NCBI RefSeq assembly: GCF_030450125.1
Contig: NZ_CP123923.1
Coordinates: forward strand, 5,828,001 to 5,892,000
Origin: Streptomyces sp. WP-1
GTDB taxonomy: Bacteria > Actinomycetota > Actinomycetes > Streptomycetales > Streptomycetaceae
DNA: 64,000 nt
Reading direction: 5' to 3'
Of the stretch, positions 16,022 to 22,295 are shown piece after piece. The notes below the pieces were generated by a model, which searched no databases, was not told the origin of the DNA, and worked only from the letters and a program-made list of their open reading frames with translations. Each line of letters begins with the position of its first letter. The first letter of the stretch is position 1. The translations under genes and the position numbers were made by a program.

Positions 16022-17236
16022 ATGCCGTTGACCCCCGAGGACGTGCGGAACAAGCAGTTCACGACCGTCCGCCTCCGAGAAGGCTATGACGAGGACGAGG
16101 TCGATGCCTTCCTCGATGAGGTCGAAGCCGAACTGACCCGTCTGCTCCGGGAGAACGAGGACCTGCGCGCGAAGCTGGCGGCCGCCACGCGGGCCGCGGC
16201 GCAGAACCAGCAGAACTCCCGGAAGCCTCCGGAGCAGGAACAGCAGCAGCAGGGCATGCGAGGACCCGGCTCTCCGGTACCCGCCGGCATATCGGGCCCG
16301 CCGCAGCAGCAGATGGGTGGCCCCATGGGTGGTCCGCCCCAGCTGCCGAGCGGTGCCCCGCAGCTGCCCGCCGGTCCCAGCGGGCAGGGTGGTCCTCAGG
16401 GTCCCGGCCCGATGGGCCAGGGTCCGATGGGACAGGGCCCGATGGGTCAGGGCTCCATGGGACAGGGGTCCATGGGTCAGGGCTCGATGGGGCAAGGCTC
16501 CATGGGACAGGGCTCCATGGGACAGGGCCCGATGGGTGGTCAGCCGCCCATGCAGCAGCAGATGGGTGGCCCCATGGGCGGTCCGATGGGTGGCCCGATG
16601 GGCGGTCCCATGGGCGGTCCCGGTCAGGGCCCCGGTGGCGACAGCGCCGCCCGTGTCCTCTCGCTGGCCCAGCAGACCGCCGACCAGGCGATCGCCGAGG
16701 CCCGCTCCGAGGCCAACAAGATCGTCGGCGAGGCCCGCAGCCGCGCCGAGGGTCTGGAGCGTGACGCCCGTGCCAAGGCCGACGCCCTGGAGCGGGACGC
16801 GCAGGAGAAGCACCGCGTCGCGATGGGCTCCCTGGAGTCCGCTCGCGCCACGCTGGAGCGCAAGGTCGAGGACCTGCGCGGCTTCGAACGCGAGTACCGC
16901 ACGCGCCTGAAGTCGTACCTGGAGTCGCAGCTGCGCCAGCTGGAGACCCAGGCCGACGACTCGCTGGCCCCGCCGCGTACCCCGGCCGCCGCGTCCCTGC
17001 CGCCGTCCCCGGCGCCCTCCATGGCTCCGGCCGGCGCGAGTGCCCCGTCCTACGGCGGCAACCAGGCGATGGGTGGTTCGCCCTCCCAGACGTCCGGTCC
17101 GTCCTACGGCGGTCAGCAGCAGATGACGCCCGCCATGACCCAGCCGATGGCTCCGGTCCGCCCGCAGGGCCCGTCCCCGATGGGTCAGGCTCCCTCGCCG
17201 ATGCGCGGCTTCCTGATCGACGAGGACGACAACTGA
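16022..17236 (+). CDS. divIVA: Polar growth scaffold DivIVA (Wag31)
   Basis: 404-aa coiled-coil scaffold that binds negatively curved membrane and directs tip growth and branching; it is essential in Streptomyces. The N-terminal membrane-binding domain ([32 protein letters not shown], here split for length) covers residues 1-40 and runs into a first coiled coil. Residues about 60-210 are a Pro/Gln/Gly/Met linker with perfect MGQG and MGGP repeats. A long Ala/Glu/Arg coiled coil spans about 215-310. The C-terminus is Pro/Ser/Gly-rich. The extended linker is typical of streptomycete DivIVA and absent from Bacillus. Confidence 0.96.
16409..16621 (+). repeat. Minisatellite inside divIVA (MGQG x8, MGGP x5)
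   Basis: Eight tandem 15-bp units (16409-16528) encode (P/S)MGQG, residues 130-169. After a short [11 protein letters not shown] bridge, five 12-bp units (16562-16621) encode MGGP, residues 181-200. Units are near identical at the DNA level, with synonymous cag/caa and ggc/ggt differences. Such an array can change copy number by slippage without breaking the frame, because both unit lengths are multiples of three. Confidence 0.9.
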
Positions 17237-17467: not shown

Positions 17468-20400
17468 CTACGCCTTGCGCAGCCGGAACACCAGGCTCAG
17501 ACCCTCGTCGGCGAAGGCGTCCCCGTAGCTGTCGTCGGCCTCGCCCTGGGCGAAGTCCGTCGCCAGGACCTCGTCCGCGATCAGCTCGGTGTGCTCACCG
17601 AGGGCCGCGATCACCGCCGGGTCCGTGGACGTCCACCGCAGCGCGATCCGGTCCGCGACATCCAGGCCGCTGTTCTTGCGCGCCTCCTGGATGAGCCGGA
17701 TCGCGTCACGGGCGAGCCCCGCCCGGCGCAGCTCCTCCGTGATCTCCAGGTCCAGCGCCACCGTCGCACCGGAGTCGGACGCCACCGACCAGCCCTCGCG
17801 CGGCGTCTCGGTGATGATCACCTCGTCCGGCGCCAGTGTGATCGTCTCACCGTCGACCTCCACCGAGGCCGTGCCCTGCCGCAGCGCCAGCGACAGCGCG
17901 GCGGCGTCGGTGGCGGCGACGGCCTTGGCCACGTCCTGCACCCGCTTGCCGAACCGCTTGCCCAGCGCGCGGAAGTTGGCCTTGGCGGTGGTGTCCACCA
18001 GGGAGCCGCCGACCTCGGACAGGGACGCCAGCGAGGAGACGTTCAGCTCCTCCGTGATCTGCGCGTGCAGTTCGCGGTCCAGGGTCTCGAAACCGCTCGC
18101 CGCGATCAGCGCGCGGGACAGCGGCTGGCGCGTCTTGACGCCCGACTCGGCACGCGTGGCACGGCCCAGCTCCACGAGCCGGCGCACCAGCACCATCTGC
18201 TTCGACAGCTCCGGGTCGATCGAACCGAGGTCGGTCTCGGGCCAGGACGCCAGGTGCACCGACTCCGGGGCGCCCGGGGTGACCGGCGCGATCAGGTCCT
18301 GCCACACCCGCTCGGTGATGAACGGGGTGATCGGCGCCATCAGCCGGGTGACCGTCTCCAGCACCTCGTGCAGCGTGCGCAGCGCGGCCTTGTCGCCCTG
18401 CCAGAAGCGGCGGCGCGAACGGCGGACGTACCAGTTGGACAGGTCGTCGACGAACGCGGACAGCAGCTTGCCGGCGCGCTGGGTGTCGTATCCCTCCAGC
18501 GCCTGCGTCACCTGGTCGGTGAGCGCGTGCAGTTCGGACAGCAGCCAGCGGTCCAGCAGCGGGCGCTCGGCCGGGGCCGGGTCGGCCGCGCTCGGCGCCC
18601 AGTTCGACGTACGGGCGTACAGCGCCTGGAAGGCGACCGTGTTCCAGTACGTCAGCAGCGTCTTGCGGACGACCTCCTGGATGGTGCCGTGGCCCACCCG
18701 GCGCGCCGCCCATGGGGAACCGCCGGCCGCCATGAACCAGCGCACCGCGTCCGCGCCGTGCTGGTCCATCAGCGGGATCGGCTGAAGGATGTTGCCCAGG
18801 TGCTTGGACATCTTGCGGCCGTCCTCGGCGAGGATGTGGCCGAGGCAGACGACGTTCTCGTACGACGACTTGTCGAACACCAGGGTGCCGATGGCCATCA
18901 GCGTGTAGAACCAGCCGCGGGTCTGGTCGATGGCCTCGGAGATGAACTGGGCCGGGTAGCGGCTCTCGAACAGCTCCTTGTTCTTGTACGGGTAGCCCCA
19001 CTGCGCGAACGGCATCGAACCCGAGTCGTACCAGGCGTCGATGACCTCCGGCACGCGCGTGGCCGCCCTGCCGCAGCCCTCGTGCGGGCAGGCGAAGGTG
19101 AGCGCGTCGATGTACGGGCGGTGCGGGTCGAGCCCGGACTGGTCGGTGCCGGTCAGCTCGGACAGCTCCGCGCGGGAGCCGACGCAGGTGAGGTGGTCGT
19201 CCTCGCAGCGCCAGATCGGCAGCGGGGTGCCCCAGTAGCGGTTGCGGGACAGCGCCCAGTCGATGTTGTTGTTCAGCCAGTCGCCGAAGCGGCCGTGCTT
19301 GACCGTGTCCGGGAACCAGTTGGTCTTCTCGTTCTCCTGGATCAGACGGTCCTTGACGGCCGTCGTACGGATGTACCAGGAGGGCTGCGCGTAGTAGAGC
19401 AGCGCGGTGTGGCAGCGCCAGCAGTGCGGGTAGCTGTGCTCGTACGGCAGGTGCCGGAAGAGCAGGCCGCGCTGCTTGAGGTCCTCGGTGAGCTGTTCGT
19501 CGGCCTTCTTGAAGAAGACGCCGCCGACCAGCGGCACGTCCTCCTCGAAGGTGCCGTCGGGGCGCACCGGGTTGACGACGGGCAGGCCGTAGGAGCGGCA
19601 GACCTTGAGGTCGTCCTCACCGAAGGCGGGGGACTGGTGGACCAGACCCGTGCCGTCCTCGGTGGTCACGTAGTCGGCGTTCACCACGTAGTGGGCCGGC
19701 TCCGGGCTGTGCCCATCGGTTCCCTCGCTGACGCTCGGGAACTCGACCAGCTCGAAGGGGCGCTGGTAGGTCCAGCGCTCCATCTCGGCGCCGGTGAAGG
19801 TCTGCCCGGTGGGCTCCCAGCCCTCGCCGAGCGCCTTGGCGAGCAGCGGCTCGGCGACGACGACCTTCTCCTCGCCGTTCGTCGCGACGACGTAGGTGAC
19901 CTCCGGGTGGGCGGCGACCGCCGTGTTGGAGACCAGGGTCCAGGGGGTCGTCGTCCACACCAGCAGCGCGGCCTCGCCGGCCAGCGGGCCGGAGGTGAGC
20001 GGGAAGCGGACGTACACCGAGGGGTCGACGACCGTCTCGTAGCCCTGTGCCAGCTCGTGGTCGGACAGGCCGGTGCCGCAGCGGGGGCACCAGGGGGCGA
20101 CGCGGTGGTCCTGGACCAGCAGGCCCTTGCCGAAGATCTCCTTCAGCGACCACCAGACCGACTCCACGTACTCCGGGTCCATGGTCCGGTAGGCGTCGTC
20201 CAGGTCGACCCAGTAGCCCATCCGGGTCGTCAGCTCGGCGAAGGCGTCGGTGTGCCGGGTCACGGACTCGCGGCACTTGTCGTTGAACTCGGCGATGCCG
20301 TACGCCTCGATGTCCTGCTTGCCGGAGAAGCCCAGCTCCTTCTCCACGGCCAGCTCGACGGGCAGGCCGTGGCAGTCCCAGCCGGCCTTGCGGGCCACGT

Positions 20401-20644
20401 GGTAGCCGCGCATGGTGCGGAAGCGGGGGAAGACGTCCTTGAAGACGCGCGCCTCGATGTGGTGGGCGCCCGGCATGCCGTTGGCGGTGGGCGGACCTTC
20501 GTAGAACACCCATTCGGGGCGGCCCTCGGACTGCTCCAGGGTCTTGGCGAAGATCTTCTGCTCGCGCCAGAAGTCGAGCACGGCGTGCTCAAGCGCGGGC
20601 AGGTCGACCTGTGCGGGCACCTGGCGGTACGTCGGCGCTGTCAT
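17468..20644 (-). CDS. ileS: Isoleucyl-tRNA synthetase IleRS, GxHH signature variant
   Basis: 1058-aa class I synthetase charging tRNA-Ile, with a CP1 editing domain. Length and sequence style (for example TYRQVPAQVDLPALEHAVLDF) place it with the eukaryote-like IleRS type 2 rather than the E. coli type. The KMSKS loop is KMSKH at 611-615. The catalytic HxGH signature is replaced by G59-A60-H61-H62 (MPGAHH), a GxHH arrangement. ATG 20644 is chosen because GGAGG lies upstream inside the T-box sequestrator; the frame extends 31 codons further but that part is the riboswitch. An adjacent T-box couples expression to uncharged tRNA-Ile. Confidence 0.97.
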   Translation of the reverse strand: MTAPTYRQVPAQVDLPALEHAVLDFWREQKIFAKTLEQSEGRPEWVFYEGPPTANGMPGAHHIEARVFKDVFPRFRTMRGYHVARKAGWDCHGLPVELAVEKELGFSGKQDIEAYGIAEFNDKCRESVTRHTDAFAELTTRMGYWVDLDDAYRTMDPEYVESVWWSLKEIFGKGLLVQDHRVAPWCPRCGTGLSDHELAQGYETVVDPSVYVRFPLTSGPLAGEAALLVWTTTPWTLVSNTAVAAHPEVTYVVATNGEEKVVVAEPLLAKALGEGWEPTGQTFTGAEMERWTYQRPFELVEFPSVSEGTDGHSPEPAHYVVNADYVTTEDGTGLVHQSPAFGEDDLKVCRSYGLPVVNPVRPDGTFEEDVPLVGGVFFKKADEQLTEDLKQRGLLFRHLPYEHSYPHCWRCHTALLYYAQPSWYIRTTAVKDRLIQENEKTNWFPDTVKHGRFGDWLNNNIDWALSRNRYWGTPLPIWRCEDDHLTCVGSRAELSELTGTDQSGLDPHRPYIDALTFACPHEGCGRAATRVPEVIDAWYDSGSMPFAQWGYPYKNKELFESRYPAQFISEAIDQTRGWFYTLMAIGTLVFDKSSYENVVCLGHILAEDGRKMSKHLGNILQPIPLMDQHGADAVRWFMAAGGSPWAARRVGHGTIQEVVRKTLLTYWNTVAFQALYARTSNWAPSAADPAPAERPLLDRWLLSELHALTDQVTQALEGYDTQRAGKLLSAFVDDLSNWYVRRSRRRFWQGDKAALRTLHEVLETVTRLMAPITPFITERVWQDLIAPVTPGAPESVHLASWPETDLGSIDPELSKQMVLVRRLVELGRATRAESGVKTRQPLSRALIAASGFETLDRELHAQITEELNVSSLASLSEVGGSLVDTTAKANFRALGKRFGKRVQDVAKAVAATDAAALSLALRQGTASVEVDGETITLAPDEVIITETPREGWSVASDSGATVALDLEITEELRRAGLARDAIRLIQEARKNSGLDVADRIALRWTSTDPAVIAALGEHTELIADEVLATDFAQGEADDSYGDAFADEGLSLVFRLRKA

Positions 20645-20946
20645 CTGCGAGCATCCTCCAACGGACTTGCTGCCTTCCGTCGGAGGGACGAGAGCTTCGA
20701 TTCCTACGCCGTGTGCGGCGCGCTCCCGCGGTACCACCCTCCTTGGCCCGCCGCCGTGACTCCGTCGCCGGTGGGCCCCCTCATTGGGTTCGCGAAGCCG
20801 GTTCTACTGGCCTGGCCCTTACGGCTGCGGCTTTCTTCCGGCGGCTCCGGGGTGATCTTCACGTCGCGCTCGCCCCCGGGCTTCCACCGTCCCCGGGTCG
20901 CTCTGGGCTGCGTACGCCGCTACTCGTCCCCATCCATGCTGCTCGC
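20645..20946 (-). promoter_or_regulatory. T-box riboswitch (ileS leader), translational type
   Basis: On the minus strand the leader contains the exact T-box core AGGGTGGTACCGCG (20727-20740). Upstream, a Stem I-like region holds a candidate isoleucine specifier ATC at 20854-20856 within GTGAAGATCACC. Downstream, CCTCCGACGG (20677-20686) can pair with CCGTTGGAGG (20655-20664), the segment carrying the ileS Shine-Dalgarno, with one G-U pair. There is no T run after the hairpin. This is the layout of actinobacterial T-boxes that bind uncharged tRNA and release the ribosome-binding site rather than controlling termination. Confidence 0.92.
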
Positions 20947-20953
20947 TGCGCCC

Positions 20954-20959
20954 AGTGTA
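20954..20959 (-). promoter_or_regulatory. Candidate ileS -10 hexamer TACACT
   Basis: TACACT on the minus strand lies about eight bases before the predicted 5' end of the T-box leader. No convincing -35 is visible at 17-18 bases. Confidence 0.45.
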
Positions 20960-21236
20960 CGGCGCCGCGCGGACAGCGGCCGACCGCTTTTCGGGGCGGC
21001 GGCCGCCGGGGGCCCGGCGCGGGCGCCCGATGCCCCGAATGGCGAGGGTACGGGGGGTGATGCCCGGCGCGGCGGATTACCCGGCGGGGAGCTGGGCACA
21101 ACGGATGCAGGCCCGTCGCGCGGGGGGTGCGGCCGGGCGAACCGGGCGGTGTGCCCCGTTGCCGCGGGAGGCAAGTCGATTTATCGTCCCAGCACGATTC
21201 GCGAGCGAGATCACCCTATGTGAAGGGGCCGCGGCC

Positions 21237-22295
21237 ATGGTGGCGAGAGAGAGCGCGAAGAAGACCGTGGCCGGGAGGACGGACACCGAGGAATCCACTG
21301 ACCGGAAGGCCGCTGCCAGGAAGGCGGGGGCGCGGAAGGCGGTGGCCGAGGAGGGGGACGGGAAGGCGGTGGCCAGGAAGGCCGCCGCCGAGAAGGGAGC
21401 CACCGTGAAGCCGGTCCTGGAGCAGACGGGCGCGGCCGAGGAGGCCGCCGCCCACCCGGTGGCGAGGAAGACGGCCGCCAGGAAGACGCCGGAGAAGAAG
21501 GCGGCGGCCGAGAAGAGCGCGGTGGCCGAGAAGACGGCGGAGGCCGCGCATGGAACGGGCGCGGCTGAGAAGCCGGCGGGCGGGAGACCGGCGGCCAGGA
21601 AGGCGGCGAAGAAGGCGCCCGCCAGGAAGAGCGCGGCCAAGAAGACGGCGGCCGGGGGCGCGACGGCCGGCGACACGGCGGCCGGGGGCGCCGCCGAGGC
21701 CGGAACCACCGCCGGGAAGGCCGCGAGGACCACGGCCCGCACGGCGGAGCCGGACGCGAAGAGCACGGCCAAGAAGGCGGGTGCGGCGCGGGCCGCGAAG
21801 CAGACAGGAGCCACGAACGTGGTTGCGAAGAAGACCCCTGGCACGGCCACGGCGGACGACACCGCCGTTCCCAAGGCGCGCCTCGCCGCGGCGGACCCCG
21901 GCGAGCTGGCGGTGCGCCCCGGTGAGGACCCCTGGACCGGACAGGAGGTCACCGAGGCGCGTGCGGAGCTCCAGTCCGAGATGGAGCGGCTGCGCCGGGA
22001 GATCAGCTCCTCCGAGGAGTCCCTGGTCGGTCTGATGCGCGACTCCGGGGACGGCGCGGGCGACGACCAGGCCGACACCGGGACCAAGAACATCACCCGC
22101 GAGCACGAGCTGGCGCTGGCGGCCAACGCGCGCGAGATGCTCACCCAGACCGAACGGGCGCTCGAACGGCTGGACGCGGGCACCTACGGCCTGTGCGAGA
22201 ACTGCGGCAACCCCATCGGCAAGGCCCGGATGCAGGCCTTCCCGCGGGCCACCCTGTGCGTGGAGTGCAAGCAGAAGCAGGAACGCCGCTCCTGA
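21237..22295 (+). CDS. DksA/TraR-type zinc-finger protein with Lys/Ala-rich N-terminal extension
   Basis: 352-aa protein. Residues 1-215 are low-complexity Lys/Ala/Glu with recurring AARKA, EKKAA and AKKTA units resembling histone H1 tails. A conserved DksA-like part begins at about 230 ([26 protein letters not shown]) and ends with a C4 zinc finger: C320-x2-C323-x17-C341-x2-C344 in [11 protein letters not shown] and LCVECKQ. DksA-type proteins bind RNA polymerase in the secondary channel. The basic tail suggests added DNA or RNA binding (inference). ATG 21237 follows GAAGGGG at nine bases; a GTG codon follows it immediately. It is divergent from ileS. Confidence 0.88.

Follow-up and report, generated by a model that had tools for sequence, protein, structure and literature searches.

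A rearranged class I signature, GAHH, in the type-2 isoleucyl-tRNA synthetase of Streptomyces sp. WP-1

The ileS gene of Streptomyces sp. WP-1, contained in the 64,000-nucleotide stretch of DNA that we analysed (the window), is almost certainly the single housekeeping type-2 IleRS (isoleucyl-tRNA synthetase) of this Streptomyces, with the HIGH signature of class I synthetases stably rearranged to GAHH and with expression probably under translational T-box control. The motif and its register, the type of enzyme, its single copy, its conservation and the placing of the swap in one tree group were all observed directly, as described below.

RESULTS

The class I signature of ileS

The first-pass annotation of this DNA had read the residues PGAHH at positions 58–62 of IleRS, and direct reading of the codons from the ATG at 20644 gave the same result, bases 20473–20459 of the minus strand being CCG GGC GCC CAC CAC. 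The span then given to the motif, 20456..20473, covers the PGAHH codons (20459–20473) but also takes in the next codon, for Ile. The start codon is preceded by GGAGG, and the mechanical ORF of ileS begins at GTG 20737, within the leader.

17471..20644, minus strand: ileS, type-2 isoleucyl-tRNA synthetase of 1058 amino acids, start ATG at 20644, identified from TIGR00392, Pfam and PDB relatives
20459..20470, minus strand: swapped class I signature G-A-H-H, residues 59–62, from direct reading and alignment

The register was checked by HMMER alignment with solved type-2 IleRS structures, in which GAHH is matched to HVGH in 1ILE and 8c8v and to GVHH (within PGVHH) in 8c8w. A pattern scan across the whole ileS protein found G.HH once and H.GH nowhere, so that there is no genuine HxGH elsewhere in the protein. 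Among the 120 homologues listed (of 7999 scored; 86–94% identity), 119 carry GAHH and one GTHH, indicating that the motif is neither chance nor a sequencing slip. These data confirm that the swapped signature GAHH is genuine in the window ileS.

Beside ileS, the ORF at 16022–17236 (plus strand) contains a repeated Gly-Pro/Ser-Met-Gly-Gln stretch and is, from a reading of its translation, one which we take to be DivIVA-like. The ORF at 20955–22295 (plus strand) has a long Lys/Ala-rich N-terminal part and, again by its translation, an end that is presumably a DksA/TraR-like zinc finger.

Enzyme type and copy number

The NCBIfam model TIGR00392 (ileS) matched the protein at 899.1 bits (cut-off 621.4), and Pfam returned PF00133, PF08264, a partial PF09334 and a C-terminal PF19302, with no zinc-finger family among the Pfam matches. 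Against PDB chains the enzyme scored 880–898 bits with 1ILE and 8c8u–8c9d (Thermus thermophilus IleRS 1ILE, 898; 8c8v, 883; 8c8w, 893), compared with 340–349 bits for the type-1 chains 8c9f, 1ffy and 8c9e. We take 8c8u–8c9d to be Priestia megaterium IleRS2, and 8c8w its GVHH mutant, from the chain letters and from PMC10485003. The window ileS reads GPPTANG, with Thr before ANG and not the type-1 Tyr; type-1 IleRS has Tyr at this place and type-2 Thr or Phe (PMC4861432).

The type-2 assignment implied by the annotation is borne out by the PDB scores, by PF19302 without a C-terminal zinc finger, by this Thr and by the tree described below. At the HIGH position the enzyme has Gly first and His third and fourth, as do the G/AxHH type-2 enzymes; X, given for these as Ile/Val/Leu/Met/Tyr in a figure legend of PMC10485003, is Ala in the window enzyme, a mismatch that is a detail of the published residue list and not of the mechanism. 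Membership of the plasmid MupA and MupB families was rejected at 760.2 and 751.1 bits against a curated cut-off of 1900: these proteins are IleRSs related to the window enzyme over most of its length, but it falls far under their cut-off and so is no member.

A search of the genome (7,618,767 bases, one contig) for a second ileS returned a single match over the family cut-off, the window locus itself; the other nine matches, at 175 bits or less, were taken for related synthetases. As the sole ileS over the cut-off, standing behind a T-box-like leader, the gene encodes the housekeeping enzyme, as had been supposed.

The leader of ileS

A T-box had also been proposed for this gene, and three elements upstream of it bear on that claim.

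20844..20939, minus strand: T-box Stem I with GAAGAUCACC, a candidate AUC Ile specifier picked by eye (RF00230, 42.4 bits, E 6.5e-08)
20684..20785, minus strand: T-box antisequestor region with AGGGUGGUACCGCG (RF00230, 17.2 bits, E 0.21)
20655..20686, minus strand: hairpin of CCUCCGACGGA and UCCGUUGGAGG that would cover the Shine–Dalgarno sequence, from the fold of 20636–20700

Stem I and then the T-box word stand in order before ileS, in two RF00230 matches that both lie under the gathering score of 93; the leader thus falls short of family membership at that threshold, and an Rfam search of the whole window at the gathering score gave no T-box match. The fold of 20636–20700 (−25.7 kcal/mol, z −2.31, with 3 of 200 shuffles as low) pairs CCUCCGACGGA over UCCGUUGGAGG, the Shine–Dalgarno sequence, and translational T-boxes of ileS, published for several Actinobacteria (Seliverstov 2005, PMC1262725), likewise combine T-box elements with a Shine–Dalgarno hairpin. 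The proposed T-box is borne out by the order of its elements but not by its Rfam scores, and the hairpin is a candidate sequestor. ileS is probably under translational T-box control, in which uncharged tRNA-Ile would free the Shine–Dalgarno sequence; counting against this part of our explanation are the sub-gathering scores and the folds of Stem I (z 0.49) and of the T-box word region (z −0.96), neither of which is better than its shuffles.

The word GGTGGYACCRCG is also found upstream of many other ileS genes. Within 600 bases upstream of the motif, the T-box word was present in 75/112 GxHH, 24/28 HxGH and 1/10 HxGT rows (150 rows, 12 of them with too little upstream sequence), and its presence across both GxHH and HxGH rows indicates that the leader does not go with the swap.

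Census and tree of the swap

In a sample of the class, 112 of 118 genomes gave an ileS match, at 113 places, 111 of the 112 having a single match and G338 (7% contamination) two. The motif could be read at 109 places (108 genomes), the census leaving out three of the 113 that had no N-terminus (G306, G297 and G375) and G364; it was GxHH at 88 and HYGH at 21. X in the 88 GxHH motifs was Thr in 53, Ala in 18, Val in 16 and Ile in one; row L072, for example, reads GAHH and row L134 GTHH. The G364 gene is cut within the motif, reads IGH and looks type-1. For the phylum, the reading of 45 genomes out of 287 with a match, a set of first-listed rows that leans to high scores, gave 28 GxHH (five from the window's genus; L021, read by eye, is GVHH), one HYGH and 16 type-1 enzymes, a further five loci being repeats of genomes already sampled. 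Some phylum genomes (e.g. G004, G034, G039 and G162) have a pair of ileS matches at E <= 1e-80, which may be split genes or second copies.

A FastTree tree of 150 rows was built with the motif masked (rooted at its midpoint for display; a number of long branches and unusual compositions were flagged). All 112 GxHH rows, 89 from the class and 23 from outside it, lie on one side of a branch with support of 99; the HYGH type-2 enzymes neighbour this group and the type-1 enzymes stand apart. The lone HYGH ileS from outside the class (L058, from G057) is on a long branch. In the rows sampled, the swap is the usual state of the window's lineage and not an exception, which the annotation did not know. 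The ileS of G381 (L100) reads GTHH, while the family's remaining six sampled genomes (L159–L164), two of them of its genus, read HYGH; its grouping with other families (support 90) suggests that replacement of one type-2 ileS gene by another is likely in this genome.

The second signature, KMSKH

18800..18814, minus strand: second class I signature KMSKH, residues 611–615, from direct reading, the coordinates being derived from the residue number

Where the window enzyme has KMSKH, most of the IleRSs examined from outside its group have KMSKS. KMSKH is present in all 120 listed homologues (of 7999 scored). Among the class GxHH rows, 88 can be read at this site: in 87 the signature ends in His (78 by script and nine by eye) and in the remaining one in Asn; row L167 is cut off and falls outside this count. 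The nine rows read by eye have Arg for the first Lys, giving RMSKH. Outside the class, the 23 rows with GxHH have Ser as the fifth letter in 21 (L021 by eye), Arg in one and His in one (L027), and among rows without GxHH His occurs in 0/38, with Ser in 22/22 HYGH and 16/16 type-1 enzymes. Counting readable rows, the fifth letter changes four times on the tree. KMSKH was not found in the main text of PMC10485003 or PMC4861432, and the literature search otherwise returned papers that were unrelated by title; the legends of both papers mention an alignment of the KMSKS region, so their authors may have seen it.

Only tentatively, and with more doubt than conviction, do we suggest that both class I signatures have changed, KMSKS becoming KMSKH on the GxHH background with the two co-adapted. 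In the rows compared, the His of KMSKH goes solely with GxHH, in the class group and in the separate row L027, which would speak for co-adaptation, and in type-2 enzyme structures the two signature motifs have moved towards each other (PMC10485003). Against it, two origins of KMSKH are few, and the Ser kept in 21/23 GxHH rows outside the class indicates that the pairing is not required. If the suggestion is true, the actinomycete enzyme would have an ATP site rebuilt in two parts, not by one swap.

Type-1 enzymes

The swap was absent from the type-1 rows (0/215; 16 + 119 + 80, rows that may overlap), and a scan of genome contigs from 84,980 species, each represented by one genome, gave no match to the type-1 context with [GA]xHH after it; on these two results a type-1 IleRS with the swap was rejected, in agreement with PMC10485003. 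As a control, the context half was present in 71/80 type-1 loci, a biased figure, since short peptide patterns had served to find the loci and one of them, F[IV]LHDGPP, overlaps the context.

Type-1 enzymes frequently read HxGT, with Thr for the fourth His, in 10/16, 60/119 and 29/80 rows (the last 26 by script and three by eye), and such rows occur in at least eight named phyla. They are L013, L016, L018, L022, L023, L029, L031, L034, L035 and L055, with others from the surveys P0121–P0240 (P0148 begins after the motif) and L168–L247; as the 119- and 80-row samples were found by an HxGT query or an HxGT-rich alignment, these shares cannot be taken as frequencies. A tree of 212 rows, which does not include L228, L240 and L246 (HxGT by eye), requires 22 changes of the HxGT label, of which well-supported branches force at least 16. 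A literature search found no paper on the HIGT, HXGT, HMGT or HLGT forms of IleRS. Some other class I synthetases normally have Thr or Asn at the fourth place, and HxGT may therefore be neutral.

DISCUSSION

The annotation had linked GxHH in type-2 IleRS to extreme mupirocin resistance, and this link is in print (PMC10485003 and PMC4861432). In Brkic et al. 2023 (PMC10485003), 86 type-2 enzymes have the G/AxHH swap and 77 have HXGH, and Streptomyces griseus IleRS2 is stated to bear the non-canonical motif; the S. griseus enzyme has a mupirocin Ki of 10 mM and supports growth of E. coli at 100 μM mupirocin (Cvetesic et al. 2016, PMC4861432). Motif exchange in both directions shifted the Ki 175- to 823-fold (calculated from Table 1 of PMC10485003), and the swap introduced into canonical enzymes made kcat and KM up to 10-fold worse (PMC10485003). 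By its published description S. griseus IleRS2 is like the window enzyme in genus, type-2 class and non-canonical motif, although it comes, as far as is known, from a different species or strain. Deinococcus radiodurans IleRS2 (ALHH; Ki 6.6 mM, PMC10485003) likewise has His third and fourth, but its first motif residue is Ala and not Gly. The best PDB relatives, the P. megaterium and T. thermophilus IleRS2 enzymes (Ki 1.08 and 0.20 μM respectively, PMC10485003), are type-2 as well and, unlike the window enzyme with its GAHH and KMSKH, have a canonical HVGH and a KMSKSKGN loop.

With the S. griseus motif and Ki already published, the finding is known for the genus Streptomyces, and the GxHH swap of the window enzyme is already known, explained in print and usual for its lineage. 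By analogy with these published relatives, the window enzyme would be active, with a mupirocin Ki in the millimolar range; the Ala at X, outside the published list, and KMSKH, a further departure from the engineered enzymes, count against this explanation.

Could the motif have been misread, or could the gene be an accessory copy that serves resistance alone, its site degenerate, with housekeeping left to a canonical IleRS? GxHH does lack the first His, mutation of which costs other class I enzymes approximately 1000-fold in rate (PMC10485003). However, the S. griseus enzyme is active in print (PMC4861432), all 120 listed homologues (of 7999 scored) have GxHH, and single matches are the rule in class genomes with a match (111/112). 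That just one locus of this genome passes the ileS cut-off already refutes an accessory copy, which we rejected on that result, unless the assembly is without a replicon, and we regard this explanation as highly improbable. A different alternative touches the origin only, namely that the swap is an ancient, alternative way for type-2 IleRS to arrange its catalytic site, with mupirocin resistance a by-product and not the selected cause. The GxHH rows from inside and outside the class form one group, which makes the swap deep-rooted and stable in the phylum, and within the class it sits in the genome's only ileS. Yet depth does not reveal what first selected the swap, the tree is rooted at its midpoint for display, and some genomes of the phylum sample, GxHH ones included, show two ileS matches; moreover, Brkic et al. 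infer that the motif was acquired at least twice and prefer an explanation by antibiotic pressure (PMC10485003). We consider such an origin plausible, while leaning against it.

The analysis confirms that most sampled species of the class have, as their housekeeping state, a surprising rearrangement of a catalytic motif that is otherwise near-universal, as already published; intrinsic mupirocin resistance would therefore be expected in them. Two small additions that can be tested are the KMSKH loop and the HxGT form that recurs among type-1 enzymes.
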